Shown in pieces: positions 8,274-22,031 of a DNA stretch of 44,979 nt; the first letter of the stretch is position 1; each line of letters starts with the position of its first letter. Made by a program: the position numbers and the translations under genes. The notes beneath the pieces were generated by a model, which was not told where the DNA came from, did not search any database, and saw only the letters and a list, made by a program, of their open reading frames with translations. The DNA comes from an uncultured Pelagibacteraceae bacterium (GTDB lineage: Bacteria; Pseudomonadota; Alphaproteobacteria; Pelagibacterales; Pelagibacteraceae): the NCBI GenBank assembly GCA_902628305.1, contig CACOMK010000001.1, forward strand, positions 1 to 44,979, read 5' to 3'.

Positions 8274-8375
8274 TTTCTTCCCCCTCTATAGACTATGAAT
8301 ATAACTTTTTTCTTAACGTTAATAAATTTTTTTTTCTATGTACATGTTGCAGTTTTTCCCATAATTGTACCAAAA

Positions 8376-9287
8376 ATGTTGTCAAATAAAGAAATTATCT
8401 GTCCAAACAATTTATTAGATCTAGCTCATAAAAAAAAGGGAGTTAAAGTTGCAATTGTAAATGCAGGTAAACCTCTACCAATGTTGTCGGTTCAAGATGC
8501 AGTAAATGAAAACTTAATTGATCCAATATTTATAGGCCACGAAGTTGAAATACAAAAATGTGCAGAAGACATAAAATGGGATATCTCTAAGTATGAAATT
8601 ATTCATGAACCTGTTGAAAATAATACTGCAAAAATAGCATCTAAATTAGCTAGCGAGAATAAAGTACAAATAATAGTTAAAGGTCATATCCATACAGATG
8701 TACTTATGAAAGAAGTTCTAAAACGTGAATATAATTTATTAGGAAAAACTAGACTTAGTCATATTTGGCATATGACAATTGATAAAGAAGATAGACCCCT
8801 GATTATAACTGATGGAGCTTTGAACGTTTTACCAAATATAAAAACGAAAATGCATATACTGAAAAATGTTATTAATTTTTCTAATAGAATAGGTTTATCA
8901 AGACCAAAGGTTTCTGTTTTATCGGCTACTGAAGAAGTTCTAGAAAGTGTTCCAAGCTCAATTGAAGCAGCAGAAATTACTAAATTAGCTAAAAATGAAA
9001 ATTTAAATGCTGATGTTTTTGGTCCCTTAGCATTTGATAATAGTATTTCAAAAAAATCAGCAAACATTAAAGGTATCAAAAATATAGTTGCGGGAAATGC
9101 AGATGTATTGTTAGTACCAAGTGTTGAAGCTGGAAATGCTTTAGTAAAAATGCTTATTTATTTTTGTGGTGCATGTGCCGCAGGTGTAGTCATAGGTGGA
9201 AAGGTACCTGTTGTAATAACAAGTAGATCAGATGAAGCTCAAGCTAGGTTAGCTTCAATAGCAGCAGCTGTTGTGGCATTAGATTAA
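8376..9287 (+). CDS. Phosphate acetyl/butyryltransferase family enzyme
   Basis: This is a 303-residue PTA/PTB-domain enzyme that interconverts an acyl-phosphate and acyl-CoA. Characteristic pieces are VKGHIHTDVLMKEVL, RLSHIWHM, PLIITDGALNVLPN, DVFGPLAFDNSIS and the C-terminal SRSDEAQARLASIA. The same open frame extends upstream to 8295, but those 27 extra residues are a low-complexity hydrophobic stretch unlike the family. Starting at ATG 8376 gives the usual length and leaves about 100 bp for divergent promoters with the BASS gene. It precedes the HpsN-like dehydrogenase by 59 bp. Short Pta enzymes accompany sulfoacetaldehyde acetyltransferase (Xsc), which yields acetyl phosphate, so a link to sulfonate breakdown is possible, but no xsc is visible here. 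Confidence 0.85.
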   Translation: MLSNKEIICPNNLLDLAHKKKGVKVAIVNAGKPLPMLSVQDAVNENLIDPIFIGHEVEIQKCAEDIKWDISKYEIIHEPVENNTAKIASKLASENKVQIIVKGHIHTDVLMKEVLKREYNLLGKTRLSHIWHMTIDKEDRPLIITDGALNVLPNIKTKMHILKNVINFSNRIGLSRPKVSVLSATEEVLESVPSSIEAAEITKLAKNENLNADVFGPLAFDNSISKKSANIKGIKNIVAGNADVLLVPSVEAGNALVKMLIYFCGACAAGVVIGGKVPVVITSRSDEAQARLASIAAAVVALD

Positions 9288-9346: not shown

Positions 9347-10633
9347 ATGACAATCATATATATAAAAAAAGCAGAAAAAACAGCATTTACAGGAGAAGAT
9401 GAAACAAGAAATAAAGTTAATACAATATTAAAAGATTTAGAAAAAACAAGAGAGGACGGGATTAAAGAGGTTCTTAAAAAATTTGATAATTATGAGGGTG
9501 ATATAATTGTAAGTAAAGATAAAATTGAACAGATTACAAAAACATTAGATCAAAAAATTAAAGATGATATAAAATTTTCTTACGACAGAGTTAGAAAATT
9601 TGCAGAACATCAATTAGAAAATTTAGGAAAAGACTCTGAAGTTGAACTTTCGCCTGGATTAATTGCTGGACAAAAATTAATTCCAGTGAATACTGCAGGG
9701 TGTTATGTGCCAGGTGGTCGTTATAACAATATTGCTTCTGCAATTATGAGTGTAACTACAGCAAAAGTTGCTGGAGTAAAAAATATTATTGTCACTAGTC
9801 CTCCTAAAGATGAAAACGGTGCAAACCCAATAATAATTTATACAGCTAATTTATGTGGAGCGGATGTTATAATGAATATTGGTGGAATTGGTGCAATAGC
9901 AGCTTTAGCATATGGTTGTTTTGAAAATCCACCAGTGGATATGATTGTCGGACCTGGAAATAAGTTCGTTGCTGAATCAAAAAGAATACTCTATGGAAAA
10001 GTTGGAATAGATTTATTTGCTGGGCCAACAGAAATTGGAATAATAGCAGATAAAACTGCTGACAAAGAAATAATAGCTTATGATTTAGTGGGGCAAGCTG
10101 AACATGGTCCTGACTCCCCAGCATGGCTTTACACAACAGATAAAGAACTTTGTAATTATGTTATGAAAAGAGTTCCAGAAATTATTAATGAATTACCAGA
10201 ACATAACAGAAATAATGCTGATGCTGCGTGGAGAGATTATGGTGAAGTAATTTTATGCAGTACAAAAGAAGAAATGGTCAAAGTAAGTGATGAATATGCT
10301 CCCGAGCATTTAGAGGTTCAAGCTGAAAATTTAGATTGGTATTTAAATACCTTAAAAAATTATGGATCACTTTTCTTAGGTGAAGAAACAACTGTTGCTT
10401 ATGGAGATAAATGTTCTGGGCCAAATCATATATTACCAACAAAAGGTGCTGGAAAATATACGGGTGGTTTGTACGTTGGAAAATTTATTAAAACGGTAAC
10501 TTACCAAAAAATGAATGAAGAATCTAATAAGGAAGTTGGCGCAGCAGCAGCAAGAATTTCTAGATATGAAGGTATGGAAGCTCACGCTAGAACCGGTGAT
10601 GTAAGATTAAGAAAATATGGATTTTCAAACTAA
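9347..10633 (+). CDS. Histidinol dehydrogenase-family enzyme, probably sulfopropanediol 3-dehydrogenase-like (HpsN)
   Basis: The 428-residue full-length HisD-superfamily NAD-dependent dehydrogenase retains the zinc and catalytic elements: Gln and His in GQAEHGPDSPAW, the Glu-His pair in YAPEHLEVQ, Asp in AYGDKCSGPNHILPT, and a late His in EGMEAHARTGD. The segment YTGGLYVGKFIKTVTYQK differs from the usual biosynthetic HisD block and matches what I recall of HpsN. HpsN oxidises (R)-2,3-dihydroxypropane-1-sulfonate to sulfolactate. No other his genes are adjacent, arguing against histidine biosynthesis, and a Pta-like gene precedes it. A different beta-hydroxy alcohol substrate cannot be excluded. 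Its stop codon abuts the convergent pcs stop without a gap. Confidence 0.78.
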   Translation: MTIIYIKKAEKTAFTGEDETRNKVNTILKDLEKTREDGIKEVLKKFDNYEGDIIVSKDKIEQITKTLDQKIKDDIKFSYDRVRKFAEHQLENLGKDSEVELSPGLIAGQKLIPVNTAGCYVPGGRYNNIASAIMSVTTAKVAGVKNIIVTSPPKDENGANPIIIYTANLCGADVIMNIGGIGAIAALAYGCFENPPVDMIVGPGNKFVAESKRILYGKVGIDLFAGPTEIGIIADKTADKEIIAYDLVGQAEHGPDSPAWLYTTDKELCNYVMKRVPEIINELPEHNRNNADAAWRDYGEVILCSTKEEMVKVSDEYAPEHLEVQAENLDWYLNTLKNYGSLFLGEETTVAYGDKCSGPNHILPTKGAGKYTGGLYVGKFIKTVTYQKMNEESNKEVGAAAARISRYEGMEAHARTGDVRLRKYGFSN

Positions 10634-11380
10634 TTAAAAATTTTTATTTATAAGACTTTTGTAAAGACTTACAGCTATAAAATAAAAGTTACTTGTTACC
10701 CAAGCAAACATAAATGATAGTTCATATATTGGATTAATTTTTGTTTGCATTGAAAGAATAAGAAGCGCTGACGTTGTAAACCAAACTATTGTAAAAAATA
10801 TTGAAATAATTCTTAACTTTTTTACTCTCAATGGGTGAATACATTTTAAAGGTGAAAATTTAAGAATTATTAACAAGATCAATATAATTAGATTTGAAAA
10901 TTGGCTACTTCCAAAAATATAAAAATAAAGAACAACCACATTCCAAATTGCTGGAAACCCATTATAATAATTGTCACTAGTCATAACGTTCAAATTTACA
11001 TAAGAATAAATAGAAACGAGAATTAAAATTGAGGGAATAAGTATTAAGAAGTTATCTGGTACTAATTTAAACCAATAAATTGTAATTGCTGGTACTATTA
11101 CATAATTAAAAAAATCAATAATGCTATCAAGCATCTTGCCATCAATATTAGGAAAGTTTTTTTTCACATTAAACTTTCTAGCAAGTGTTCCATCAACACT
11201 ATCTATCAAAAAAGCTAAACCCAACCAAAGAAATGCATTTGATTGATTATTATTCATAACCGAGATTAAAGCAAAAAAACCAGCCAATGCTCCAAAACCA
11301 GTTAATAGGTGTACGAATAAGGCAACTATTTTTTCATACTTAAATTCAGAAAATGTTTTGAAATTTTTTTCATTACTCAT
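10634..11380 (-). CDS. pcs: Phosphatidylcholine synthase
   Basis: The 248-residue multi-helix membrane enzyme has the CDP-alcohol phosphotransferase signature: Asp60, Asp63-Gly64, Ala67-Arg68, then Gly81, Asp85 and Asp89 (DSVDGTLARKF followed by DGKMLDSIIDF). The N-terminal HLLTGFGALAGFFALI and the late IHPLRVKKLR are typical of Pcs, which condenses CDP-diacylglycerol with choline to make phosphatidylcholine in one step in alphaproteobacteria and relatives. About seven to eight hydrophobic segments are visible. Its ATG lies inside the 3' end of the alternative oxidase gene (8-bp overlap), so the two are co-transcribed, an odd functional pairing. Other CDP-alcohol transferases such as PssA are the main alternative. 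Confidence 0.87.
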   Translation of the reverse strand: MSNEKNFKTFSEFKYEKIVALFVHLLTGFGALAGFFALISVMNNNQSNAFLWLGLAFLIDSVDGTLARKFNVKKNFPNIDGKMLDSIIDFFNYVIVPAITIYWFKLVPDNFLILIPSILILVSIYSYVNLNVMTSDNYYNGFPAIWNVVVLYFYIFGSSQFSNLIILILLIILKFSPLKCIHPLRVKKLRIISIFFTIVWFTTSALLILSMQTKINPIYELSFMFAWVTSNFYFIAVSLYKSLINKNF

Positions 11381-12050
11381 TTAAAAATTTTTTTTTATTA
11401 TGATTTGAAATTTTATAATTTTTATTTTGATTGTTGATTTTTCTTCCATCTAATATTGATGCGAAACTATGATTAACATCTCTATGACCAGCCTCATCAT
11501 CTCTTATTACTTTTACAACATCTTTTAGTGTTGAGTGAAGTGGTAAATTCCAATAGTTAATTGCAATTTCAGGAGCTGCTTGATCCTGTATTTTACCATT
11601 TTCTAACTCATTAAGATATTCCGAATAACTAATTACTGCCTCCTCCTCAAAATATCCCACAATTCTGTGAGCAGTTCTTTGAGAGATTATAAAAATAATC
11701 ATGTACATAATTATAAAAATAAATTGAGCTATCATTATAATTAATCTCTCTAAAAATGTTGGTTTGGCAATCTCAATAAAAGTCATAAGATGCATTCTTT
11801 CGTTTGCAGCTTCGTCTAAAAGTATTTTAATCCAACCTTTATCATCTTCCATTTTTCTTAGAGATTTTAAGTGCAAAAGCATTCCAGCTACCATTCCTGG
11901 TACTGCAGCAACAGTTTCGAGTACAACTGCTCTATGACCATATCTTTTTTTAAAAAAAGTATCAGCCAAAAGCCTTAAAAATTTAGTAAACAATAAAGCA
12001 ATCTTGTCACTAAAATTTTTGGGTTCAAAATGTTTATTTAAATCACTCAT
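11373..12050 (-). CDS. aox: Alternative oxidase (cyanide-insensitive ubiquinol oxidase)
   Basis: The 225-residue diiron membrane-bound oxidase has all four AOX signature boxes: LETVAAVPGM (Glu45), NERMHLM (Glu84, His87), EEEA (135-138) and DDEAGHRDVNH (Glu186, His189). These supply the six iron ligands of the family. AOX oxidises ubiquinol and reduces oxygen to water without pumping protons, uncoupling electron flow from ATP yield. Two hydrophobic stretches lie between boxes two and three (about 103-124) and near box one, as expected for a monotopic membrane protein. It is upstream of and overlaps pcs by 8 bp. The 74-bp region before it, after the terminator-like element of the ABC ATPase, should hold its promoter. 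Confidence 0.94.
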   Translation of the reverse strand: MSDLNKHFEPKNFSDKIALLFTKFLRLLADTFFKKRYGHRAVVLETVAAVPGMVAGMLLHLKSLRKMEDDKGWIKILLDEAANERMHLMTFIEIAKPTFLERLIIMIAQFIFIIMYMIIFIISQRTAHRIVGYFEEEAVISYSEYLNELENGKIQDQAAPEIAINYWNLPLHSTLKDVVKVIRDDEAGHRDVNHSFASILDGRKINNQNKNYKISNHNKKKFLNE

Positions 12051-12103: not shown

Positions 12104-12126
12104 AAAAAAGCTTTATTTTACAAGCT
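12104..12126 (-). terminator. Possible intrinsic terminator after the ABC ATPase gene
   Basis: In minus-strand RNA, AGCUU (12126-12122) pairs with AAGCU (12113-12109) across an 8-nt loop and is followed by a U run (12109-12104). The stem is short and starts within the ATPase stop codon. The position at the operon end, before aox, supports it. Confidence 0.45.
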
Positions 12127-13180
12127 AAGATTTAATTCTTTTTCCATTTTCATCAAAAAGAAAAATATCCTTAGAGTTAAATCCAATTATATTTTCTATT
12201 TTATTTTGGCTCGAAATTTTTGCACTAATCTCGTGATTATCTATTTTAATATATGCTATTTTTTCATTACCTAAGTTTTCAACAAGATCAATTTTTGGCT
12301 CAAATATAAATTCACTTTCTCTAGATACATTAAAATGTTCAGGTCTGATCCCAATTAAGTAATTTTTTTTCTCTAATTTAACGTCAGGTATTGTCACCGT
12401 GTTGTCTAAAAACTTAATTTGATTACTTGATAAAACATTTTCATGAGACACCTCTAAAATATTCATTTTTGGTGTACCAATAAATTGAGCAACAAAAACA
12501 TTAGCTGGATCATTATATATTTCTTCTGGAGAACCAACCTGTTCTATATTTCCATGATTTAGAATAACAATTCTATCAGCTAAAGTCATTGCCTCTACTT
12601 GATCATGAGTTACATAAATCATATTAGTTTTAATCTGTTTATGTAATTTTGAAATTTCAACTCTCATCTCTGCTCGTAAAGCAGCATCTAGGTTTGAAAG
12701 TGGTTCATCGAACAAAAATATTTTAGGATTTCTAGTAATTGCTCTACCAATAGCAACCCTTTGTCTTTGTCCACCTGATAATTGTTTTGGTTTTCTCTCT
12801 AATAATTCCTCAATCTTTAATATTTTTGCTGCCTGCATTACTTTTGTTTCAATTTCCTCTTTTGGTTTTTTTTCAATTTTTAAACCAAAAGACATATTTT
12901 CGTAAACATTCATATGTGGATATAATGCATATGATTGAAAGACCATTGCGGTTTGTCTTTTTGATGGATGAAGCGTATTAATTAATTGATCATTAATATA
13001 AATATCTCCTTCATCAATTTTTTCTAAACCAGCTATCATTCTTAGCAATGTTGATTTTCCACAACCAGATGGCCCTACAAGAACTAAAAATTCATCATCA
13101 TTTCCTTGAAGATTAAAATCAGTTATAATTTTATTTGTGCCAAAAGATTTATGAACGTTTGAAAATTTTATATTAGCCAT
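12125..13180 (-). CDS. ABC transporter ATPase of the MalK/UgpC sugar-import class
   Basis: The 351-residue ATPase has Walker A GPSGCGKST (36-44), a Q-loop at MVFQSYALYP, signature LSGGQRQRVAIGRA, Walker B IFLFDEPLSNLD and the H-loop in YVTHDQVEAMT. The remaining C-terminal third is the OB/TOBE regulatory domain typical of MalK/UgpC (IGIRPEHFNV present). This class energises import of sugars, polyols and glycerol phosphates. No other permease set is on this strand, so its partners are the two permeases at 18712-20624, on the divergent operon of the same locus. It is the second gene after the double-SnoaL protein with a 3-bp gap, which ties that protein to the transported solute. Confidence 0.93.
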   Translation of the reverse strand: MANIKFSNVHKSFGTNKIITDFNLQGNDDEFLVLVGPSGCGKSTLLRMIAGLEKIDEGDIYINDQLINTLHPSKRQTAMVFQSYALYPHMNVYENMSFGLKIEKKPKEEIETKVMQAAKILKIEELLERKPKQLSGGQRQRVAIGRAITRNPKIFLFDEPLSNLDAALRAEMRVEISKLHKQIKTNMIYVTHDQVEAMTLADRIVILNHGNIEQVGSPEEIYNDPANVFVAQFIGTPKMNILEVSHENVLSSNQIKFLDNTVTIPDVKLEKKNYLIGIRPEHFNVSRESEFIFEPKIDLVENLGNEKIAYIKIDNHEISAKISSQNKIENIIGFNSKDIFLFDENGKRIKS

Positions 13181-13183
13181 AAA

Positions 13184-14266
13184 TTATTTTATTAACTCGA
13201 ATACATCTATGTCAATTTGTTTTAGTATATGAATTATATCAATTGGCACCCAGTTTTCTCTGATCTTTCCCTCATCATGGTGATAAAAATCCATTACTCT
13301 CATCGTTACATTTTGATTGTTAGATTTATATCCCAACCAATGATCTGATCCATAAACAGCTTGTATACTATTCCAACCAGCTGTTAATGAAAATTTTCCA
13401 TCTCCTAATTCACAGTAATGTCCAAGTTTCCAATAATTTCTTTCTTTGAATGTTTTTCTAAAAGGCATTTGATGATTATTAATAAAACCTTCTAAAGATC
13501 TCGCTGTACCAATGCCACTTGGACCATACCAAATCATTTTATCATGCCAGTAATCTGATTGTGGATGATTTTTCAATTTCTCTCTAAGCTCATCATCTGA
13601 TTTACATTCAAGTTCCGGTTTAATATTTAAACTTCTCTGCATTATTAATGATTGTTCTAAACTAGCTTGTGAAATTTCAAAATTTTTTTCAAAAAAATTA
13701 ACACCATCTCTATTAATTGGCTGAAGCCAGTTTCCTTCTGCACCTCGGGATTTGTTCAATGGATACTGTCCACATTGTAACATCAAATCCAAAAGATCAA
13801 TTAATATATGGCTTTCAATAATTTTATTATTTTTGAGCTCGTGAATCTCACAACATTTAAGATTTATCATTTTATTATTTGGGGATATCCCTAACCATGA
13901 TTTCTTAAAACTGCCAGATAAAGTTGATATAGAGCCAACTTGTATTTTATCCCTAAATGTTCCTCCAATTACAATTTGTTCTCTTCTCTCAATATCTGGA
14001 AAAGAATTAAATAAAGGTTTCCAAAATTTTTCTTTAAATTCATTCAGGCCAGAAAATTCGTTAAGTGGATAAAAACAATTTACTTTAATATTGTTAGAAA
14101 ATGCATTTTCCAAATTCTCATCAATTTTAGAAATTCCATTTTTAAATATTTGTTTTAAATAACCTCTTACTTCAAGCTTATTTTTAAAATTTTCCTCAGG
14201 AGAAATAATTAATTTTTTTACATTCTCCTGTCCTTTAAGACCTGTATCAAATTGCTCTATTTGCAT
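13184..14266 (-). CDS. Large SnoaL/NTF2-like protein (two predicted cyclase-fold domains)
   Basis: The 360-residue soluble protein has no signal peptide. Two SnoaL-like halves can be read. One is about residues 45-170, with the GLNEFKEKFWKPLFNSFPDI helix and a sheet ending SHILIDLLDLMLQCG. The other is about 235-355, with MIWYGPSGIGTARSLEGF and MRVMDFYHHDEGKIRENWVP. SnoaL-fold proteins include polyketide cyclases, isomerases and hydrolases, usually about 130 residues, so this double form is unusual. It is the first gene of the minus operon, directly before the ABC ATPase. A related double-domain protein is at 15261 on the divergent operon. The reaction is unknown; a role on the imported solute is inferred from context. 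Confidence 0.75.
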   Translation of the reverse strand: MQIEQFDTGLKGQENVKKLIISPEENFKNKLEVRGYLKQIFKNGISKIDENLENAFSNNIKVNCFYPLNEFSGLNEFKEKFWKPLFNSFPDIERREQIVIGGTFRDKIQVGSISTLSGSFKKSWLGISPNNKMINLKCCEIHELKNNKIIESHILIDLLDLMLQCGQYPLNKSRGAEGNWLQPINRDGVNFFEKNFEISQASLEQSLIMQRSLNIKPELECKSDDELREKLKNHPQSDYWHDKMIWYGPSGIGTARSLEGFINNHQMPFRKTFKERNYWKLGHYCELGDGKFSLTAGWNSIQAVYGSDHWLGYKSNNQNVTMRVMDFYHHDEGKIRENWVPIDIIHILKQIDIDVFELIK

Positions 14267-14276
14267 ATATAATTAA

Positions 14277-14306
14277 TTGTTTAAATCTAGTATCACAAAA
14301 TATAGT
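14277..14306 (+). promoter_or_regulatory. Candidate promoter of the bicupin operon in the divergent gap
   Basis: TTGTTT (14277-14282) and TATAGT (14301-14306) are separated by 18 bp and fit a sigma-70 promoter. The -10 box ends only 10 bp before the ATG at 14317, implying a leader of a few bases. Both operons of the ABC locus must be driven from this 50-bp gap (14267-14316), so their promoters overlap. Confidence 0.4.
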
Positions 14307-14316
14307 GTAAAAAAAT

Positions 14317-15261
14317 ATGAATAATCGTTTAGCAAAATTTGAAGATCTAGTCCCAAGCACCCTACCATTTGTAGAAGGTAAGCTTGAGGGTCACAAAGAT
14401 AGAAAAAATTATTCAATCGTAGGTCCTGGTGTTGCAGAGGATTCAGGACAGTCTGTCAAAATAGCAATGCCACATAGTTTTAATTTAGGTGCAGTTTCTG
14501 CAAAGCCAAAAAATGGATCAGGATTGCACAGTCATACTACCGCAGAAGTATTTTTAGTTTATTCTGGAAAATGGAAATTTTATTGGGGTGCGAATGGAAA
14601 AGATCAAACCATATTAAGTGCTGGAGATATAATTTCGATGCCAACAAATATGTTCAGAGGATTTGAAAATGCAGGTGATAAAGAGGGATTAATGTTTGTC
14701 GTGCTCGGAGGTGATGATCCGGGAATAATTACTTGGGTGCCTAGTGTTTTGGAAAAAGCAAAAGAAACTGGAATGGCTTTACTTGATGACAATTCTTTAA
14801 TTGATTTATCTAATGAAAAAATACCTGATGGTAAAGAACTTTTAAAACCAATAGACTTAGAGGAAATTAAAAAGTTTGATGATTATAGATTGGATGAACT
14901 TTCAAAATTTATTTGTAAATTTGAAAATAGAAAAAATTTTGAACAAGAAATCACGCCAGGATTATTTTTAGTTCAAGTGCTTGGAAATAGCTTTAATAAT
15001 CAAAATTTTAAACCAATAATTAATCAAAATACTGGTTTTAATTTAAGTTTATTAAAGGCAAAAAATTGTAATGTTGAAAATATAAAATTTGATAAACCTA
15101 CAATATTATTTTCACAAACTGGAGATTGGAAAGTGAGAATAAATAATACTGAAATATATTTAAAACCAAAAGATACTTTTTCAGTACCTATAAATTCAAA
15201 CTTAAGTATAAAAATTGATGAACAGCAAGATTGTTTTTTAAATTGTGTGTCTCAAATTTAA
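14317..15261 (+). CDS. Bicupin protein
   Basis: The 314-residue protein has an N-terminal cupin around residues 60-130: motif 1 SGLHSHTTAEVFLVYSGKW, with two histidines and a glutamate as likely metal ligands, and motif 2 LSAGDIISMPTNMFRGFEN. A divergent second cupin-like region (about 215-310) contains LKPKDTFSVPINSNLS but lacks clear metal ligands, so it is probably structural. Cupins of this type are dioxygenases, isomerases, lyases or binding proteins. The first conserved segment resembles metal-dependent enzymes. It heads the plus operon of the ABC locus, and its stop codon overlaps the next start (TAATG), implying coupled translation with the double-SnoaL protein. Specific chemistry is unknown. 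Confidence 0.8.
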   Translation: MNNRLAKFEDLVPSTLPFVEGKLEGHKDRKNYSIVGPGVAEDSGQSVKIAMPHSFNLGAVSAKPKNGSGLHSHTTAEVFLVYSGKWKFYWGANGKDQTILSAGDIISMPTNMFRGFENAGDKEGLMFVVLGGDDPGIITWVPSVLEKAKETGMALLDDNSLIDLSNEKIPDGKELLKPIDLEEIKKFDDYRLDELSKFICKFENRKNFEQEITPGLFLVQVLGNSFNNQNFKPIINQNTGFNLSLLKAKNCNVENIKFDKPTILFSQTGDWKVRINNTEIYLKPKDTFSVPINSNLSIKIDEQQDCFLNCVSQI

Positions 15262-16223
15262 TGAAGGGATTTGATAATAAATATAGGGACTTTCCAGATT
15301 ACATTCTAAAAATTACAAAGCAAATTTGGGAGGGAAAGGATGTTAACTCAATATCGGAATTTTACTCTAAAGATATACCTGTAAGATCTCCATTTGGAGT
15401 AACTTATGGAAACAAACCAGTAATAGAAGCAACTTTTGCAACACTAAAAGAATTTCCAAATCGTCAACTTTTAGGAGAAGAAGTCATTTGGAATGGAAAT
15501 GATGAAGAAGGTTATCATTCGTCTCACAGAATACTAAGTAAAGGTACTCACTTAGGAGATGGCTTTTACGGAAAGCCAACCAAAAAGGATATTTACTATA
15601 GGGTAATTGCAGATTGTGCTTGTAAAAACAATCAAGTTTATGATGAATGGATCGTAAGAGATCAAGGTGCAATGGTTAGACAGCTTGGATACACTCCAAA
15701 AGAATTTGCTAAACAGATAATAGAAAAAGAAGGTGGAGAAACTACAGCAAAAAAAGTATTTGATTTAAGTTCCGATATGAAATCTGAATATACGCCATTT
15801 AGTTTTGAAAAAGATAGTATAGGTGAAAAATATTCTCAAATTTTAAAAAATATTTTTTCAGAAAATTATAAATTTACTGATTATGCAAGAGCTGCAAGTG
15901 TTTTCTGGCCAGGTAATAAAATAGGCCACGGAAGAGAGGAAATCTCAAAATTTTGGAATTCTATAAAAAATGCACTTAAAAATATTAATTTTTCTATTGA
16001 GCATGTTGGTTGGTTAGAGGAAGAAGGTAAAAATAGTAAGGTATCAATAAGATGGTTTTTAAATGGAATGCACGCTAATAATACCAATGAATATGAGCAA
16101 GCAACTAATAAAAATATTTTTATCATGGGAATTAATCATGCTGAAATTGTTGATGGAAATATAATTAGAGAATGGGTGTTATTTGATGAAGTTGCTATTT
16201 GGAAGCAATTATTAATGAAATAA
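15261..16223 (+). CDS. Second large SnoaL-like protein (ester-cyclase-like, two domains)
   Basis: The 320-residue protein starts at ATG 15261, overlapping the bicupin stop by one base. The open frame runs 10 codons further up, but that would overlap the bicupin gene more deeply. The first SnoaL-like domain is about residues 10-155 (FYSKDIPVRSPFGVTYGNKP, then DEWIVRDQGAMVRQLGY). The second is about 185-318 (GHGREEISKFWNSIKNAL, then VDGNIIREWVLFDEVAIWKQ). The architecture parallels the 360-residue protein at 13184, with which it probably shares ancestry. No signal peptide is present. The MetE-like gene begins 4 bp later. Function is unknown, but the position inside an importer operon suggests a catabolic step. 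Confidence 0.77.
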   Translation: MKGFDNKYRDFPDYILKITKQIWEGKDVNSISEFYSKDIPVRSPFGVTYGNKPVIEATFATLKEFPNRQLLGEEVIWNGNDEEGYHSSHRILSKGTHLGDGFYGKPTKKDIYYRVIADCACKNNQVYDEWIVRDQGAMVRQLGYTPKEFAKQIIEKEGGETTAKKVFDLSSDMKSEYTPFSFEKDSIGEKYSQILKNIFSENYKFTDYARAASVFWPGNKIGHGREEISKFWNSIKNALKNINFSIEHVGWLEEEGKNSKVSIRWFLNGMHANNTNEYEQATNKNIFIMGINHAEIVDGNIIREWVLFDEVAIWKQLLMK

Positions 16224-16227
16224 TAAA

Positions 16228-17355
16228 ATGAGTAAAATTAAAACAACACACGTTGGAAGCTTACCAAGATCAAATGATTTATCCGAACTATTATTTAAAA
16301 AAGATAAAAAGGAAGAAATAGACTCTGCTGCATTTGATGAAATAGTAAAAAGAGATGTAAATAATATTGTAAAAAAACAAATTGATATTGGTATTGATTT
16401 TGTCAGTGATGGAGAAATGTCAAAAATAAGTTATGCAACTTATGTTAAGGATAGACTTGATGGATTTTCAGGAGAGAGCGAGAGAAAAGCACCAAAAGAT
16501 TTAGACGACTTTCCCTCTTTTAAAGAAAGAATAGCAAGAACTGGTGGTACACCAACTTATACAAGACCTTGTTGTACTAGTGAGCTTAAAATTAAAGATA
16601 AGACTTCTCTTACAAAAGATATAAACAATTTTAGAGACTCTTTGAATGCTAATAATCATTCAGGTGGATTTATGAACGCAGCATCACCTGGAGTAATATC
16701 AGCATTCTTACCAAATAAATTTTATAAAACTGACGATGAATATTTAGAAAATTTGTCTAACTTAATGAAAGATGAATACGAGGAAATAACCTCTAACGAT
16801 ATTCAATTACAATTAGATTGTCCTGATCTCGCTTTAGCGAGACATATGACATTTAAAGATCTTTCAGAAAAAGAATTTCTTAAAAGAGCAGAGAAACAGA
16901 TTGAGTGTCTTAATAATGCAATTCAAAATATAGATAGTTCTAAAATAAGAATGCACATATGCTGGGGTAATTATGAAGGGCCTCATCTATATGATATTTC
17001 TCTTGAAAAAATTATGCCAATTGCTCTTAAGGCAAACGTACAAACTTATTTAATTGAATCATCTAACCCGCGACACTCTCATGAATGGCAAATTTTTGAA
17101 AATTTAAAAATTCCATCAGATAAAATAATTGCACCAGGAGTAATAGATTCCACAACTAATTTTGTTGAACATCCAGAAGTTGTAAAACAAAGAATTATAA
17201 CATATTCAAATGTAATCAATAAAGATCAGTTAATGGCTGGTACTGATTGTGGATTTAGTACCTTTGCTGGTTTTGGAAATGTAGACGAAAACATCGTTTA
17301 TAAAAAGCTTGAAGCTCTTGTAGCAGGGGCGGAAATTGCGTCAAAAGTGATTTAA
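16228..17355 (+). CDS. MetE C-terminal-domain-like zinc methyltransferase family protein
   Basis: The 375-residue single-domain TIM-barrel protein is related to the catalytic half of cobalamin-independent methionine synthase. It opens with THVGSLPRS and contains a plausible zinc site: His243 and Cys245 (HICWGNYEGP), Glu277 (YLIESSNPRH) and Cys341 (GTDCGF). These match the His-X-Cys, Glu, Cys order of MetE. It lacks the N-terminal MetE half and so is unlikely to be a full methionine synthase. Relatives include epoxyalkane:coenzyme M transferases and corrinoid-independent thiol methyltransferases. In this operon it may take a methyl or other alkyl group from the imported compound, which is inference. 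An 8-bp inverted repeat overlaps its stop codon. Confidence 0.88.
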   Translation: MSKIKTTHVGSLPRSNDLSELLFKKDKKEEIDSAAFDEIVKRDVNNIVKKQIDIGIDFVSDGEMSKISYATYVKDRLDGFSGESERKAPKDLDDFPSFKERIARTGGTPTYTRPCCTSELKIKDKTSLTKDINNFRDSLNANNHSGGFMNAASPGVISAFLPNKFYKTDDEYLENLSNLMKDEYEEITSNDIQLQLDCPDLALARHMTFKDLSEKEFLKRAEKQIECLNNAIQNIDSSKIRMHICWGNYEGPHLYDISLEKIMPIALKANVQTYLIESSNPRHSHEWQIFENLKIPSDKIIAPGVIDSTTNFVEHPEVVKQRIITYSNVINKDQLMAGTDCGFSTFAGFGNVDENIVYKKLEALVAGAEIASKVI

Positions 17356-17365
17356 TTATCACTTT
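17344..17365 (+). promoter_or_regulatory. Stem-loop at the end of the MetE-like gene
   Basis: AAAGTGAT (17344-17351) and ATCACTTT (17358-17365) form an 8-bp stem with a 6-nt loop that includes the TAA stop. No U tract follows, so partial termination or mRNA processing before the binding-protein gene is more likely than full termination. Confidence 0.4.
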
Positions 17366-17439
17366 GAATTCACTCCAGTACTAGATATAGTTTTCAAACT
17401 TAAATTATAATTTAACAAACAAATATAGAGAGATAAAAT

Positions 17440-18660
17440 ATGAGAAAAATACTAGTTACTTTATTGTTTCTACTTTTTGGTACTTCTGCATATGCAGATT
17501 GCAATATTAAAAGTGGATCAATAAATATTTTGGCTAATGATTTTCCTGCATTAAGAACTTTCGTTGAAACTTCTAAACAATGTAAAGGAAGTGCTGATTT
17601 TAAAGTGACACACTCATCAGAGCACAATAAAATCGCAGTGCCAGCACTAACTGCAAACCCTTCTGAATTCTCAGCTAGAATTGCAGCAAATAGTTCAATT
17701 GTTCCTTTAATGAACCAAGATTTAATAAGACCATTAGATGATCTTGTTAAAAAATATGGAAAAGGAATACAAGACTCTCAATTAATTACAATAGATGGAA
17801 AAGTAATGGCTGTAGCATTTATGGCTAATACTCAACACTTGTACTATAGAGAAGATGTCTTAAAAGATATGGGTATTGCTGTACCAAAAACATACGAAGA
17901 AGTTGTTGCGGCGTCTGAAAAAATTAGAGCTTCTGGAAAAATGAAATACCCTTATGCAGCTGCATATAAAGCTGGTTGGAACTTAGCAGAGGAATTTGTA
18001 AACATGTTTATTGGCCATGGAGGAGAATTCTTTAAAGCTGGAAGTGCACAACCTAATATTAACAATTCAAAGGGCGTTGCTACTTTGAACATGTTAAAAA
18101 AATTATCTGAACTAAGTAATCCAGATTATTTAACTCATGATAGCGAAGCAATTAAAGTTGAATGGGAGTCAGGTAATGTTGCTTTGATGACATTATGGGC
18201 TTCAAGATCTGGTACTCTTTTAGATGATGAAGGAGATGCCAAAATTACTGCTGCAACAAAATTAACTGGTCCTGCAACAGTTGGTGGTGGAAACATTCCA
18301 GCTGCAACTTTATGGTGGGATGGTTTTACACTTGCAAAAAATAGATCGGACGCTGACGCTGAAGCAACATTTAGAGCTTTAGCACATGCAGCCTCAAATA
18401 AGAAAATGGTTGCTGACGCTGCTGACCAAGCTGTTTGGTTAGTAGAAGGATTTGTACCAGGGCCAAAATCTATTGGTGTAATCGAAGCTGTAAAAATGGG
18501 AGCAAAACCATATCCTATGTTACCACAAATGGGTTTAATGCATGGTGCATTGGGAAGTGAAATTGTTGAGTTTTTACAAGGTAAAGAGTCAGCTGAACAA
18601 GCATTGAAAGATGTTGAGGCTGCTTACATTAGTAAAGCTAAAGAACAAGGCTTTCTATAA
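17440..18660 (+). CDS. ABC transporter sugar-type periplasmic binding protein
   Basis: The 406-residue family-1 extracellular solute-binding protein has a Sec signal peptide ending in the AYA motif before DCNIK (about residue 19-20). The fold is recognisable by the segment LYYREDVLKDMGIAVPKTYEEV (split over the hinge) and the C-terminal repeat-type helices around MGLMHGALGSEIVEFLQGK. It binds the solute in the periplasm for the permeases at 18712 and 19743. The 84-bp gap upstream probably carries an additional promoter, and a GC-rich hairpin separates it from the permeases, the usual arrangement for over-producing binding protein. The solute is unknown; related proteins bind sugars, polyols or glycerophosphodiesters. 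Confidence 0.92.
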   Translation: MRKILVTLLFLLFGTSAYADCNIKSGSINILANDFPALRTFVETSKQCKGSADFKVTHSSEHNKIAVPALTANPSEFSARIAANSSIVPLMNQDLIRPLDDLVKKYGKGIQDSQLITIDGKVMAVAFMANTQHLYYREDVLKDMGIAVPKTYEEVVAASEKIRASGKMKYPYAAAYKAGWNLAEEFVNMFIGHGGEFFKAGSAQPNINNSKGVATLNMLKKLSELSNPDYLTHDSEAIKVEWESGNVALMTLWASRSGTLLDDEGDAKITAATKLTGPATVGGGNIPAATLWWDGFTLAKNRSDADAEATFRALAHAASNKKMVADAADQAVWLVEGFVPGPKSIGVIEAVKMGAKPYPMLPQMGLMHGALGSEIVEFLQGKESAEQALKDVEAAYISKAKEQGFL

Positions 18661-18674
18661 AATCTAAAACTTTA

Positions 18675-18699
18675 TAAGTGGGGATTTATTCCCCACTTA
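18675..18699 (+). terminator. GC-rich stem-loop between binding protein and permease genes
   Basis: AAGTGGGG (18676-18683) pairs with CCCCACTT (18691-18698). One more pair is possible at each end, giving about 10 bp in an otherwise AT-rich gap. The following AATTAAATTT is a weak U tract. It probably acts as a partial terminator or 3' stabiliser, lowering permease relative to binding-protein expression. Confidence 0.65.
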
Positions 18700-18711
18700 A
18701 TTAAATTTCAA

Positions 18712-19740
18712 ATGCCTAATAAAACTTTTTTCTGGTTTTTTTTACCTACAGGTTTGGCCATGATCCTTTTTATTGGGCTACCGATCATATCAACTGGAAT
18801 ACAATCTTTTTACGCACAACATGATCAAGTTGTAAAAGAAGTTAAAAAGTGTGATCCTTTTGGATGCACTGTTTCAATTGTGGTTGATAATGAGGAAACT
18901 ACAAAAATCAGAGATGCAAAACCTCTTGGAAAGTTTAATGGATTTGGAACTTACACAGACAGAAATCATCTAGCAGTTGATGAAATAAAAAAATTTTGGA
19001 ATGAAACTGAGAGTTTTGGGGCTTTTGTGGATCAAGTAACTAATCTACCTTTTTACAAAGCTCTAATATTTACTTTAACATACTGCTTATTTGTTACTCC
19101 AAATGTACTGTTACTTGGATTTATTATTGCATTAAGTTTAAATGCAGTTGCTAGAAAAATTAGAGGACCTCTAATCTTTGGTACAATTTTACCAATGATT
19201 GTGACACCATTGGTAGGATCGTTAGTATTATTTTGGATGATTGATTCTCAGGGTATAATTGGTGCAAACATCCAAAACTTGATGAATGATCCCTATTTAT
19301 CACTAAAATCCTCTAAAACATTGACTTGGATAACCATCATAATTTATGGAATCTGGCATCATTCCCCATTCGCTTTTGTTGTTTTCTATGCAGCACTTCA
19401 AACGGTGCCTCAAGAACCTATTGAAGCAGCAATTATTGATGGTGCGTCTAGATTTCAAAGAATTAAACATATTGTTTTACCTCATATTTATCCAGTGGTT
19501 ACTTTTGTGGCTTTAATTTCATTAATGGATAATTTCAGAGTTTTCGAGCCTATAATTGGATTTAGTGCTGAAGGAAGCGCACAATCTCTTTCATGGTTAA
19601 TATATGATAATTTAGTCAACGAGGAAGTGATATTATTTGGTTCTGCCGCAGCAACTTCGATGATGACTATTATTGGTATTGCAATTCTTCTAGCACCAGT
19701 TTTGATAAGAACTTGGAAAGAATTTAAAACAGCGAGATAA
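18712..19740 (+). CDS. ABC transporter permease, MalF/UgpA class
   Basis: The 342-residue inner-membrane protein has a first helix at about 5-28, then an unusually long polar periplasmic loop (about 30-110, with Cys residues in KKCDPFGCTV), followed by five further helices. The cytoplasmic EAA loop that docks on the ATPase is EPIEAAIIDGASRFQRIKHI, ending in VLPHIYP. The gene begins 13 bp after the intercistronic hairpin and is 2 bp from the second permease gene. Its ATPase partner is encoded divergently at 12125. The long first loop resembles MalF-like permeases in which it contacts the binding protein. Confidence 0.92.
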   Translation: MPNKTFFWFFLPTGLAMILFIGLPIISTGIQSFYAQHDQVVKEVKKCDPFGCTVSIVVDNEETTKIRDAKPLGKFNGFGTYTDRNHLAVDEIKKFWNETESFGAFVDQVTNLPFYKALIFTLTYCLFVTPNVLLLGFIIALSLNAVARKIRGPLIFGTILPMIVTPLVGSLVLFWMIDSQGIIGANIQNLMNDPYLSLKSSKTLTWITIIIYGIWHHSPFAFVVFYAALQTVPQEPIEAAIIDGASRFQRIKHIVLPHIYPVVTFVALISLMDNFRVFEPIIGFSAEGSAQSLSWLIYDNLVNEEVILFGSAAATSMMTIIGIAILLAPVLIRTWKEFKTAR

Positions 19741-19742
19741 TT

Positions 19743-20624
19743 ATGGATTATGGATTAGATACAAAATCAACTCGCTTAAAAACATTCAATACTATTTTTA
19801 TTATTACTTGGTTGTTAATTGCTTGTTTTCCATTTATTTGGACTTTTTGGGGATCTTTTAAGGTAAGAGCAGACTTCTTTTCCAGATCTGATTGGTGGTA
19901 CGCGATATCTGCATTTAATACTTTAGTTGAAACAGGTGGAAAATTTACAAACAATGCCTACACAGAAGCGTGGACTGAAGGTGAATTTTGGAAAGCATCA
20001 AAAAATACAATCATTGTAACAGTATTTGTTGTTAGTATTTCTTTATTTTTAGGAACTTTAGGTGCGTATGCTCTTTCAAGATCAACTGAAAAATATGCAT
20101 TTTGGATTTTAATGATAGCTTTAATTTTTAGAGCTATGCCGCATATAACTCTAGTATCAGGATATTTGTTTCCTTTTTTTGAATTACAGATTTGGGGAAT
20201 TCTTCCAACCACAATTGTTGTATTGGTGGCAATTAATCAGCCATTTACACTTTGGTTGCTTTACTCATTTTTTAAAACGGTGCCAAAAGAGCTTGATGAA
20301 AGTGCATTAATTGATGGTTGTTCATATTTTCAAGCTTTTAGACATATAATTATGCCTGTGATGTGGCCAGGTGTAATTACTGCAGGTTTATTTAGTTTAA
20401 TGCTAGCTTACAATGACTTTACTGTAACAGCATTACTTCTTAATCAAGAAAATCATACAATGGTTCCAAAAATTCAAAGTTATTTGGGTACAAACCAACA
20501 TGAAGGAAACTTAATGTGGGCAGTTTCAGCGGTTGTGTCTGCTACTGCGCCTCTTTTTATGTTAGTTATGTTTTTCCAAAGACAAGTTATTAGTGGCTTA
20601 ACTGCAGGAGCAGTAAAAGGTTGA
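19743..20624 (+). CDS. ABC transporter permease, MalG/UgpE class
   Basis: The 293-residue inner-membrane subunit has six predicted helices, the first near 15-35 after a short cytoplasmic N-terminus. The EAA loop reads ELDESALIDGCSYFQAFRHI followed by IMPVMWPG, the MalG-type docking motif for the MalK-like ATPase. It pairs with the preceding permease to form the translocation channel. The final codons overlap the TTG start of the HAD gene (TTGA), so translation of the two is probably coupled and the HAD protein belongs to the same transport/catabolic unit. Confidence 0.92.
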   Translation: MDYGLDTKSTRLKTFNTIFIITWLLIACFPFIWTFWGSFKVRADFFSRSDWWYAISAFNTLVETGGKFTNNAYTEAWTEGEFWKASKNTIIVTVFVVSISLFLGTLGAYALSRSTEKYAFWILMIALIFRAMPHITLVSGYLFPFFELQIWGILPTTIVVLVAINQPFTLWLLYSFFKTVPKELDESALIDGCSYFQAFRHIIMPVMWPGVITAGLFSLMLAYNDFTVTALLLNQENHTMVPKIQSYLGTNQHEGNLMWAVSAVVSATAPLFMLVMFFQRQVISGLTAGAVKG

Positions 20625-21283
20625 AATATTACAAAGCACTTTTTTTTGGTTCAATTGGATCAATTGTTGAAACTTCAGATTTACAAAGAAAATCATTTAA
20701 TCAAGCTTTTATAAAATCAGATTTAAATTGGTATTGGACTAAAAAAGAATACAAGAAACTTTTAAATAAATCTGGAGGTGAAGATCGAGTCTCAAGATAC
20801 GCTAAACAAAGTAATATTAGAGTTAATGCCAAAAAAATAAGAAGTCTTAAAACAAAAATATTTAATATTTATTTAAAGAAAAAAGAACTTAAATTAAGGC
20901 CAGGAGTGAAAGATTTAATTAATTTTTGTATAAAAAATAAAATTAAATTAGGTTTTGTATCGTCAACCTCATTAAATAATATTAATTCAATTTTTTATTG
21001 TTTAAGGAGTTCAATTAAAAAAAGTTATTTTAATTTTATAGGAAATTCGAGTCTAGTTAAAAAAAATAAACCAAATCCAGATATATATTTATTTGCTCTA
21101 AAAAAATTAAAACTAAAACCTGAAGAATGCATAGCTATAGAAGATTCACAAGAGAGCCTAGATGCTGCATTTAAAGCAAAAATAAAATGTTTAATTTTCC
21201 CTGGGAAATTTCATTCAGGTAAAAAGTTTCTAAGAGCATACAAAAAAGTGTTTAACCTAAATATAAAAATTATGAGGAAATAA
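20621..21283 (+). CDS. HAD-fold protein of the CbbY/beta-phosphoglucomutase type lacking motif-I aspartates
   Basis: The 220-residue protein matches the CbbY-type HAD layout: motif I position near residue 8, helical cap (about 17-85), motif II Ser in GFVSSTS, motif III Lys in KKNKPNPDIY, and motif IV in IAIEDSQESLDAA. Motif I, normally FDxDGTL with the nucleophile and acid/base Asp, reads FFGSIGSIVET here. Both aspartates are replaced (Gly and Ile), while flanking residues align well. Phosphoryl transfer by the standard mechanism is therefore not expected. It may be a binding, scaffold or regulatory protein, or use different chemistry. Start is TTG at 20621, overlapping the permease stop, with AGGAG at 20606-20610. 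It overlaps the convergent hydrolase gene by 14 bp. Confidence 0.85.
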   Translation: MKYYKALFFGSIGSIVETSDLQRKSFNQAFIKSDLNWYWTKKEYKKLLNKSGGEDRVSRYAKQSNIRVNAKKIRSLKTKIFNIYLKKKELKLRPGVKDLINFCIKNKIKLGFVSSTSLNNINSIFYCLRSSIKKSYFNFIGNSSLVKKNKPNPDIYLFALKKLKLKPEECIAIEDSQESLDAAFKAKIKCLIFPGKFHSGKKFLRAYKKVFNLNIKIMRK

Positions 21284-22031
21284 AATCTTTTATAATTTGA
21301 TTAAATTTATCACTTTGCTCTAAATGTACATTATGGCTACAATCCTTAAATATCACTAAACGACTATTTTTTATATTTTTGTTCAAAGTATCAACTTGTT
21401 CAAAATTATATGAAGTGTCTTTGTCTCCCCAAATAATAAGTGTGGCATTTTTTATATATTCTAAATTCTCTATTCCTCTCCAATTTTTCATTGCCAGCAA
21501 TGCATTGTCAGCTGTTTCTAGTGAAACATTTTTAACTGCATTTAAGCAGAGGAAATAATTTTTGTCTTGATCCCCTTTTACGAACCATTTTTTAGGAACA
21601 CGTGAAAATGAAATAGCTGTTCCATCTTTTTTTAGTTTTTCTCTTGTTTCATCTATAGTTTCAAATCTTCCTGGAATTTCTCCAATTGAACCTGTAGCAA
21701 AACAGATTAATTTGTTTACTCTGTTACCAACTAGTTTTGTTATTTCTTGGACAATCATTCCGCCCATTGAATGACCAATTAAATTAAATTTTTCAATTTT
21801 TTTTTGATCAAGGGTTTCTATTACTTTTTTAGCCATATCATTTATTGAACTAAGCGATTTAGATTTATAGCTTTCTCCAAAACCAGGCAAGGCAGGTACA
21901 ATTACTCGACAAATTTTTGAAAAAAATTCTTTTTGATAACGCCACATTTCAGAAGATCCAAGGTATCCATGAATGAATACAAAAGGATAGCCTTTTCCTA
22001 TGTCATCAATATAAATGTCTTTATTCTTCAT
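21270..22031 (-). CDS. Alpha/beta hydrolase
   Basis: The 253-residue single-domain hydrolase has the oxyanion-hole segment FIHGYLGSSEMW, the nucleophile elbow LIGHSMGGM (Ser), the acid in IIWGDKDTSYN (Asp), and the catalytic His in FKDCSHNVHLEQ. No signal peptide is present. The family covers esterases, lactonases, carbon-carbon bond hydrolases and others, and the residues do not narrow the substrate. Its start codon overlaps the stop of the upstream LysE-type exporter gene by one base (TAATG), so the two are co-expressed. It converges on the HAD gene of the ABC locus. Confidence 0.88.
   Translation of the reverse strand: MKNKDIYIDDIGKGYPFVFIHGYLGSSEMWRYQKEFFSKICRVIVPALPGFGESYKSKSLSSINDMAKKVIETLDQKKIEKFNLIGHSMGGMIVQEITKLVGNRVNKLICFATGSIGEIPGRFETIDETREKLKKDGTAISFSRVPKKWFVKGDQDKNYFLCLNAVKNVSLETADNALLAMKNWRGIENLEYIKNATLIIWGDKDTSYNFEQVDTLNKNIKNSRLVIFKDCSHNVHLEQSDKFNQIIKDFISS

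Follow-up and report, generated by a model that had tools for sequence, protein, structure and literature searches.

What solute does a divergent pair of operons in an uncultured SAR11 bacterium import, and how is it dismantled? The locus in question lies at positions 12,125 to 21,283 of a 44,979-nucleotide stretch of DNA (hereafter the window) from a member of the Pelagibacteraceae (contig CACOMK010000001.1 of assembly GCA_902628305.1), whose source genome comprises 913,424 bases in 41 contigs and is 69.7% complete. A first-pass annotation, made from the letters alone, had described a dedicated pathway in which an ATP-binding cassette (ABC) importer is combined with two tandem SnoaL-like proteins (here SnoA and SnoB), a bicupin, a MetE-like zinc-site protein and a HAD-fold protein. 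We give an even chance to the reading that this is the SAR11 version of a widespread and apparently undescribed import-and-catabolism locus for one class of sugar-like solutes, which would end in a vicinal diol and often carry a methyl group.

The genes are inherited together. SnoB, the MetE-like protein, the solute-binding protein and the bicupin were each found in the same 6 of the 118 genomes of the window's family (its own genome included), all from the window's genus, and none of the four was found in the other 112. Such a coincidence of four genes in an identical set of genomes goes beyond chance, so that, on gene content, the import and catabolism genes form one co-inherited block. The best 80 of 557 confirmed collection matches comprised 66 Pelagibacteraceae loci, 51 of them long on both sides; among these matches listed, the binding protein, both permeases, the cupin, the SnoA-like gene and the MetE-like gene are present in all 51 long loci, the HAD gene in 50 and a gene of the HisD/HpsN family also in 50, the exception for the latter (L017) stopping at a contig end. 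These locus counts, like those below for other alphaproteobacteria and for drawn stretches, are based on tblastn because our initial gene-picking preferred long wrong-strand frames in GC-rich DNA (e.g. L004, L122, L127, L130). The enzymes do not mostly occur apart from the transporter, since the binding protein and both permeases are present in every one of the 51 long SAR11 loci and of the 10 long loci from other alphaproteobacteria, and in 20 of 36 stretches, each at most 20 kb, that were drawn in surveys of the class and the phylum (some of these stop at contig ends, and counts on them are lower bounds). The proposal of a dedicated import-and-catabolism pathway is borne out in that the genes behave as one unit, but the unit is not limited to the genes first named.

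The importer is also strongly conserved. Permease A is 85-100% identical to those of eight SAR11 relatives, with an identity at four-fold sites of merely 37-49% in seven of the eight, and the binding protein shows 89-100% amino acid identity to the same number of relatives. SnoA, SnoB and the cupin are 61-78% identical to their SAR11 counterparts, the closest relative excepted. Judged from these identities, the transporter genes are under stronger constraint than the enzyme genes. In the comparison with L009 and L011, the binding protein gene has a four-fold-site identity of 68-69%, versus 36-52% for nine other genes, a difference that hints at selection on codon use or at a recent exchange.

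The layout first described holds in nearly all respects: every gene named is open at the position given, every protein family named scores above its curated Pfam or NCBIfam cut-off (Table 1), and the divergent gap separates a minus-strand arm of two genes (UgpC ATPase and SnoA) from a plus-strand arm of seven (bicupin, SnoB, MetE-like protein, binding protein, two permeases and HAD-fold protein). Stops and starts are indeed coupled, with base 15261 common to the cupin stop and the SnoB ATG, and with permease B and the HAD gene overlapping at 20621-20624; SnoB starts at this ATG, and the TTG at 15231 chosen mechanically in the open reading frame list is wrong. As to extent, the positions of the genes were right, but the unit probably continues to the HisD-family gene at the left.

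Table 1. Features of the locus and of its left flank in the window, with the supporting match (bit scores are followed by the model cut-off).
Feature	Positions	Strand	Support
Phosphate acetyltransferase-like gene adjoining hpsN; neighbour only	8295..9287	+	NF006045 300.7 bits vs cut-off 282
HpsN-like (HisD family) dehydrogenase, GRYNN motif; probable pathway member	9347..10633	+	PDB HpsN 8v35, E 1.1e-153
UgpC/MalK-type ABC ATPase	12125..13180	-	NF008653 470 bits vs cut-off 432; ABC_tran
SnoA, tandem SnoaL-like, 360 aa	13184..14266	-	PF07366 71.4 bits (cut-off 28.4), two stretches; PF12680 30.4 bits
Divergent gap between both arms, 50 bp; presumed promoter region	14267..14316	.	coordinates
Bicupin	14317..15261	+	PF07883 (Cupin_2) 38.5 bits vs 27.2
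SnoB, tandem SnoaL-like, 320 aa	15261..16223	+	PF07366 61.8 bits (28.4), two stretches
MetE-like single-barrel protein, 375 residues	16228..17355	+	PF01717 (Meth_synt_2) 57.5 bits vs 21
Extracellular solute-binding protein	17440..18660	+	PF01547 (SBP_bac_1) 60.7 bits vs 26
Permease A	18712..19740	+	PF00528 (BPD_transp_1) 51.8 bits vs 26.4
Permease B	19743..20624	+	PF00528 (BPD_transp_1) 66.8 bits vs 26.4
HAD-fold protein without nucleophilic Asp	20621..21283	+	PF13419 (HAD_2) 83.1 bits vs 23.8

Fuller versions of the locus occur outside SAR11. Overlapping surveys of 337 genomes of the class and 378 of the phylum gave SnoB in 26 and 21 of them, respectively, and a similar gene set is carried on Roseobacter plasmids of Ruegeria, Octadecabacter and Marinovum, with identities to the window of 52-54% for MetE, 42-43% for SnoB and 39-65% for the permeases (in the Octadecabacter stretch the ATPase is annotated and the permeases are not). 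These plasmid versions have three or four SnoaL-type proteins and add a 'histidinol dehydrogenase', a LacI-type or other regulator, an alpha/beta hydrolase, an RraA-family protein (annotated as 'demethylmenaquinone methyltransferase' in Marinovum) and, in two of the three, an SDR. Across the 36 drawn stretches we counted the cupin in 32, a HisD-family gene and LacI in 31 each, a SnoA-like gene in 28, the SDR in 27, MetE in 25, the Roseobacter-type hydrolase in 23 and RraA in 12. Six of 13 other loci annotated gene by gene have an HpcH/HpaI-type aldolase and no RraA match (called with Pfam on one and by BLAST clustering for the remaining five); the one scanned reaches 103.5 bits for PF03328 against a cut-off of 25, and stays below cut-off for the GarL and HpaI models. 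The Roseobacter RraA protein scores 57.6 against 24.5 for the RraA-like Pfam domain. The carrier varies too: L186 has an SSF symporter and L188 an MFS carrier, and a minimal form on a Sulfitobacter plasmid consists only of LacI, a TAXI-TRAP carrier, aldolase, HisD and SDR. The window has an alpha/beta hydrolase at 21270-22031, which was considered as a counterpart of the Roseobacter locus hydrolase and was ruled out (20.6% identity, E 1.8e-8).

From these gene sets we propose the following route. The importer would take up a small sugar-like solute, which the SnoaL proteins and the bicupin would isomerise or open, and the zinc site of the MetE-like protein would pass a methyl group of the solute to homocysteine, yielding methionine, which would be useful to SAR11. 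An enzyme of the HisD/HpsN family, mostly of a type with the motif GK[F/Y]P[M/L/I] and in the window an HpsN-like one with GRYNN, would then oxidise a CH2OH group to a carboxylate. In the fuller versions the SDR would give a 2-oxo acid, from which an RraA- or HpaI-type aldolase would release pyruvate. Both of these families include pyruvate-releasing aldolases, and the finding that one family stands in for the other supports such a last step. The SAR11 version would have kept the importer and the first steps, the remainder being carried out by unlinked enzymes or the product being excreted.

The dehydrogenase is the member of this route that was not named at first. A histidinol dehydrogenase for histidine synthesis was considered for the gene at the left and was ruled out, as the gene is HpsN-like (E 1.1e-153 to the Cupriavidus HpsN structure 8v35 versus 5e-71 to the best histidinol dehydrogenase) and the genome has a separate HisD-like gene (34% identity). 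According to the available text of PMC11382572, HisD-family enzymes oxidise a CH2OH to a carboxylate where a hydroxyl or amino group stands next to it, zinc being bound by these adjacent groups, and the GRY[A/S]H motif of HpsN contains His126, which recognises the sulfonate. The window gene keeps the catalytic Glu-His and Asp-Lys pairs (Glu318, His319, Asp352 and Lys353, reading EHL and GDK) and, unlike HpsN, reads GRYNN, with Asn for His126; the enzymes of the GK[F/Y]P[M/L/I] type, which we call locus-type, have Met, Leu or Ile at this place. In a tree of 69 rows (hand-picked from a pool of 120 HisD-like rows with two queries, several of them repeats, and from further rows of later collections; built by a quick method without bootstrap, with two deep joins flagged for long branches), the family falls into true HisD, HpsN, the locus-type clade and a fourth set of three rows (GRYPI/GRFPL) that stands apart.

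Sixteen of 18 locus-type HisD genes, from 17 genomes, lie within about 10 kb of SnoB. GRYNN is found in the window as well as in L007, 32 further SAR11 loci and L073 from a non-SAR11 alphaproteobacterium; these 36 rows include the window twice (W and L137), leaving 34 other loci, and all were collected through SnoB, so that the sample is biased. In 20 stretches free of this bias, hand-picked from genomes with an HpsN match of at least 71%, three genes read GRYNN, all with the locus, and 17 read GR[Y/F]AH, 15 without the locus and two with it (L216, and L215 of genome G421, where the locus lies on another contig). L073 has a GRYNN enzyme where 12 of 13 sister loci have the locus-type one (the thirteenth, L081, is cut), and this replacement suggests that the two enzymes catalyse the same reaction. 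The HisD/HpsN-family dehydrogenase is probably part of the pathway. No second HpsN copy was detected at E 1e-30 in G000 (69.7% complete), G402, G434 and G442, and these genomes may lack canonical oxidation of R-2,3-dihydroxypropane-1-sulfonate (R-DHPS).

The likeness to HpsN also admits a rather improbable reading, in which the locus frees DHPS or another C3 sulfonate from a conjugate, e.g. a sulfosugar glycoside, and HpsN and the phosphotransacetylase finish its degradation. It would account for the presence of an HpsN-like gene in all six locus genomes, near the locus except in G421 (different contigs), for the position of hpsN about 11 kb from the locus HisD in G310, and for the Xsc encoded in the genome (968.7 bits, cut-off 676.4); like hpsN in other SAR11, the window gene stands beside a Pta-like gene. 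This pairing, however, also exists without the locus: in SAR11 stretches that have hpsN and no locus, the same neighbours are kept, Pta-like and G5173-like genes in 15 of 15 and a LysE-like gene in 12 of 15. In six of seven other alphaproteobacteria with both, hpsN is distant or on another contig, and neither the locus-type HisD nor the GRYNN protein has the sulfonate-recognising His. No SnoaL, cupin or MetE-like gene is named for the DHPS pathway in the available text of PMC11382572 and PMC11131964. The importer resembles the carbohydrate importers of the UgpB/SmoF type (for sn-glycerol-3-phosphate and sulfoquinovosyl glycerol) in its UgpC ATPase, which is above cut-off, and in permeases that are UgpA- and GlcU-like but below those model cut-offs; its binding protein differs from UgpB (35.5 versus a cut-off of 411) and matches SmoF weakly (E 2.7e-6), other sugar-binding proteins matching better (best E 1.5e-9).

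The reading as a sugar-like solute pathway gives the MetE-like protein a role in moving a methyl group. Its zinc ligands H243, C245, E277 and C341 align to those of MetE and are invariant in 111 of 111 distinct rows, as are S11, E63 and D197, which we take to be homocysteine contacts. The predicted structure (AlphaFold2, pLDDT 71.5) is a single MetE-type C-terminal barrel, matched by MetE C-terminal barrels at Z about 25, and the protein aligns to the C-terminal half in most MetE rows; the N-terminal folate half of the about 750-residue MetE is missing. All matched NCBIfam MetE cut-offs are far from reached (best 105.5 versus 406). A Halobellus relative on a haloarchaeal plasmid (L226:1747-6816) lies next to a phosphonate-type ABC transporter and a run of five SnoaL 'ester cyclases', and a Croceicoccus relative (45% identity) lies near a syringate O-demethylase, MTHFR, FolD and PurU. 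The invariant zinc ligands, the MetE-type fold and these gene neighbours make a role in moving a methyl group likely, and in our reading the donor would be the imported solute itself.

Alternatively, the protein could be a small methionine synthase of the ordinary kind, scavenging one-carbon units with methyltetrahydrofolate or methylcobalamin as donor, the solute being unmethylated, which we regard as unlikely but a serious contender. The company of MTHFR, FolD, PurU and the demethylase in Croceicoccus would fit it, as would the finding that in Marinovum about 5 kb separate the MetE-like gene from a dimethylsulfoniopropionate (DMSP) cluster that includes the demethylase DmdA, and the lack of the gene in several otherwise similar clusters, among them those of Paracoccus alcaliphilus and Roseibium. 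The core-MetE of Dehalococcoides, which according to the available text of PMC7005905 uses methylcobalamin, resembles the window protein in having one barrel, the zinc ligands H-x-C...C and no N-terminal folate domain, and the Phaeobacter 'Mes-like' protein PGA1_c27430 is likewise a single barrel as described in the accessible part of PMC12366255; unlike both, the window protein is embedded in a solute-catabolism locus. Against this alternative, the annotation of the Ruegeria and Octadecabacter stretches names no folate or cobalamin enzyme, none was recognised among the window genes scanned, and across the 118 family genomes the MetE-like gene occurs only in the six that bear the locus (E up to 1e-8).

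The AlphaFold2 model of SnoB (pLDDT 74) is matched by SnoaL/NTF2-type folds, as its sequence had suggested; residues 7-146 match AclR at Z 15.5, and the second half is barely covered by VIA rows. Its top Foldseek match is lasalocid epoxide hydrolase (PDB 3rga, E 1.5e-8), which also holds two SnoaL-type folds in one chain, but the identity is 9%, the root-mean-square deviation over the whole chain is 18 A, and the gene context in the window is catabolic. The first motif of the bicupin, HxHx(3)E, is intact (H71-x-H73-x3-E77) in 120 of 120 distinct rows; the metal-binding His of motif 2 is not present, and all 120 rows have Arg114 at its place. For the HAD-fold protein, the fold attributed to it was confirmed, but its catalytic Asp is absent: the protein reads FGSIGSI at the place of the DxD nucleophile motif, and all 77 aligned rows, that of the window among them, have Gly for the first Asp. 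Owing to the missing nucleophile, the protein probably does not act as a phosphatase in the usual way. Besides the SAR11 loci, its gene was seen in all 10 long loci from other alphaproteobacteria, but in 1 of the 36 drawn stretches.

One chemically attractive candidate for the solute is a mycosporine-like amino acid or a gadusol-type cyclohexenone, to which we assign a small probability. Here the MetE-like protein would demethylate the ring O-methyl group onto homocysteine, the HisD-type enzyme would oxidise the ring CH2OH, the cupin or the SnoaL proteins would open the ring, and RraA would split a product resembling 4-carboxy-4-hydroxy-2-oxoadipate (CHA). The support is one of chemical fit: these compounds have a methoxy group and a C5(OH)CH2OH unit able to chelate zinc as in HpsN, and would lead to a LigK-type product; in addition, the named hosts of loci with MetE and tandem SnoaL genes are marine or saltern organisms. 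Among known systems, the Croceicoccus cluster for methoxyaromatics and protocatechuate (DesA, LigK) resembles the locus in its MetE-like relative, an NTF2-like neighbour and an RraA-family aldolase, but the annotations of the Roseobacter clusters include neither a DesA/LigM-type O-demethylase nor a 4-oxalomesaconate tautomerase. No gene specific to such compounds was recognised, the Roseobacter RraA does not reach the CHA-aldolase model (29.4 bits versus a cut-off of 179), MetE-less relatives of the locus occur in soil, and the literature searched gave no catabolic genes for these compounds; the sole degradation mentioned in the available text of a review (PMC3083659) is the hydrolysis of amino-acid substituents of mycosporine-like compounds by Vibrio harveyi. 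It would be a long shot, then, to propose that SAR11 and Roseobacters catabolise sunscreens of this kind, with methyl transfer by the MetE-like protein and with an HpsN-derived dehydrogenase freed of its sulfonate preference; if this were true, a single imported molecule would supply SAR11 with methionine and also with glycine or serine.

Several observations weigh against a single pathway for a sugar-like, often methylated solute. A close UgpC copy (at least 75% identity) is present in 24 of the 51 long SAR11 loci and missing in 27, so that the ATPase is no fixed part of the locus and may be a shared one. Canonical GRYAH is kept in 22 SAR11 locus rows and in genomes G396 and G421, and the change to GRYNN is therefore not required; the GRYNN enzymes form one clade (SH-aLRT 99, sister to SAR11 GR[Y/F]AH), which makes the change a single event and not a statistical association. 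Two locus-type HisD genes (G109:C77 and G164:C9) are not at SnoB, and close relatives of this type lie on plasmids of Rhizobium, Pararhizobium and Sulfitobacter with no SnoaL annotated in the stretch, so that the clade is not exclusive to the locus. Eleven of the 36 drawn stretches lack the MetE-like gene. The last steps are also thinly represented in SAR11: SDR, RraA, LacI and the Roseobacter-type hydrolase were not detected in the 51 long loci, and in a search of eight SAR11 genomes, of which six carry the locus, RraA-like proteins turned up in one and HpcH/HpaI-family (PF03328) proteins in seven, namely in all six with the locus and also in one of the two without. Finally, as the hpsN neighbourhood exists without the locus, the locus sits inserted between hpsN and lysE, and the adjacency of hpsN may mark a mere insertion site.

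Taken further, such an insertion site would mean a flexible island of unrelated cassettes adjoining hpsN that serve no single pathway. Other cassettes do enter at this place (the second importer of L013, the gain and loss of UgpC, and the two frames at 10634-12050 of the window), but the core genes coincide exactly across the 118 genomes and recur together in other taxa with different surroundings, and we hold an island without a common function to be very improbable.

In the literature searched, mostly without subscription papers, for the gene combination, HisD-like enzymes and MetE-like demethylases, we found no account of the locus, in line with the first-pass annotation, which had known of no described pathway. 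Within that literature the gene combination, the locus-type HisD clade and the GRYNN lineage of HpsN appear to be new; the component families are known. That some SAR11, Roseobacters and other alphaproteobacteria share this unit, and that its importer is highly conserved, suggests a common dissolved compound without a known bacterial sink. The unit places a MetE-family protein in some SAR11 (the six locus-bearing genomes), a group stated in the available text of PMC12478193 to be without MetE and MetH. The HpsN lineage next to the locus has lost its sulfonate-recognising residue, and since hpsN transcripts, SAR11 included, have been used for mapping DHPS use in the ocean (PMC11131964, in its available text), some of these transcripts may not report DHPS use.

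The surroundings of the locus differ between genomes. Two minus-strand frames occupy positions 10634-12050 of the window, between hpsN and the locus; by reading the frames we presume that they resemble a CDP-alcohol phosphatidyltransferase and a COQ7-like protein, and the frame at 11373-12050 had no NCBIfam match at 1e-10. COQ7-like copies near hpsN also occur in L202, L203 and L217, all without the locus. In three loci of non-SAR11 alphaproteobacteria (L073:2916-6487, also L080 and L129), sulfate-activation-like genes adjoin the locus, presumably CysQ-, CysD- and CysN/C-like as read from their sequences. Between hpsN and UgpC, L013 carries a second ABC importer with a glucosylglycerate-hydrolase-like enzyme (L013:1638-6722; NF047898 297 bits versus a cut-off of 550; PDB 2z07, E 7e-95), and matches to the permease of this second importer were found at the same place in L008, L011, L014-L017, L020 and L021.

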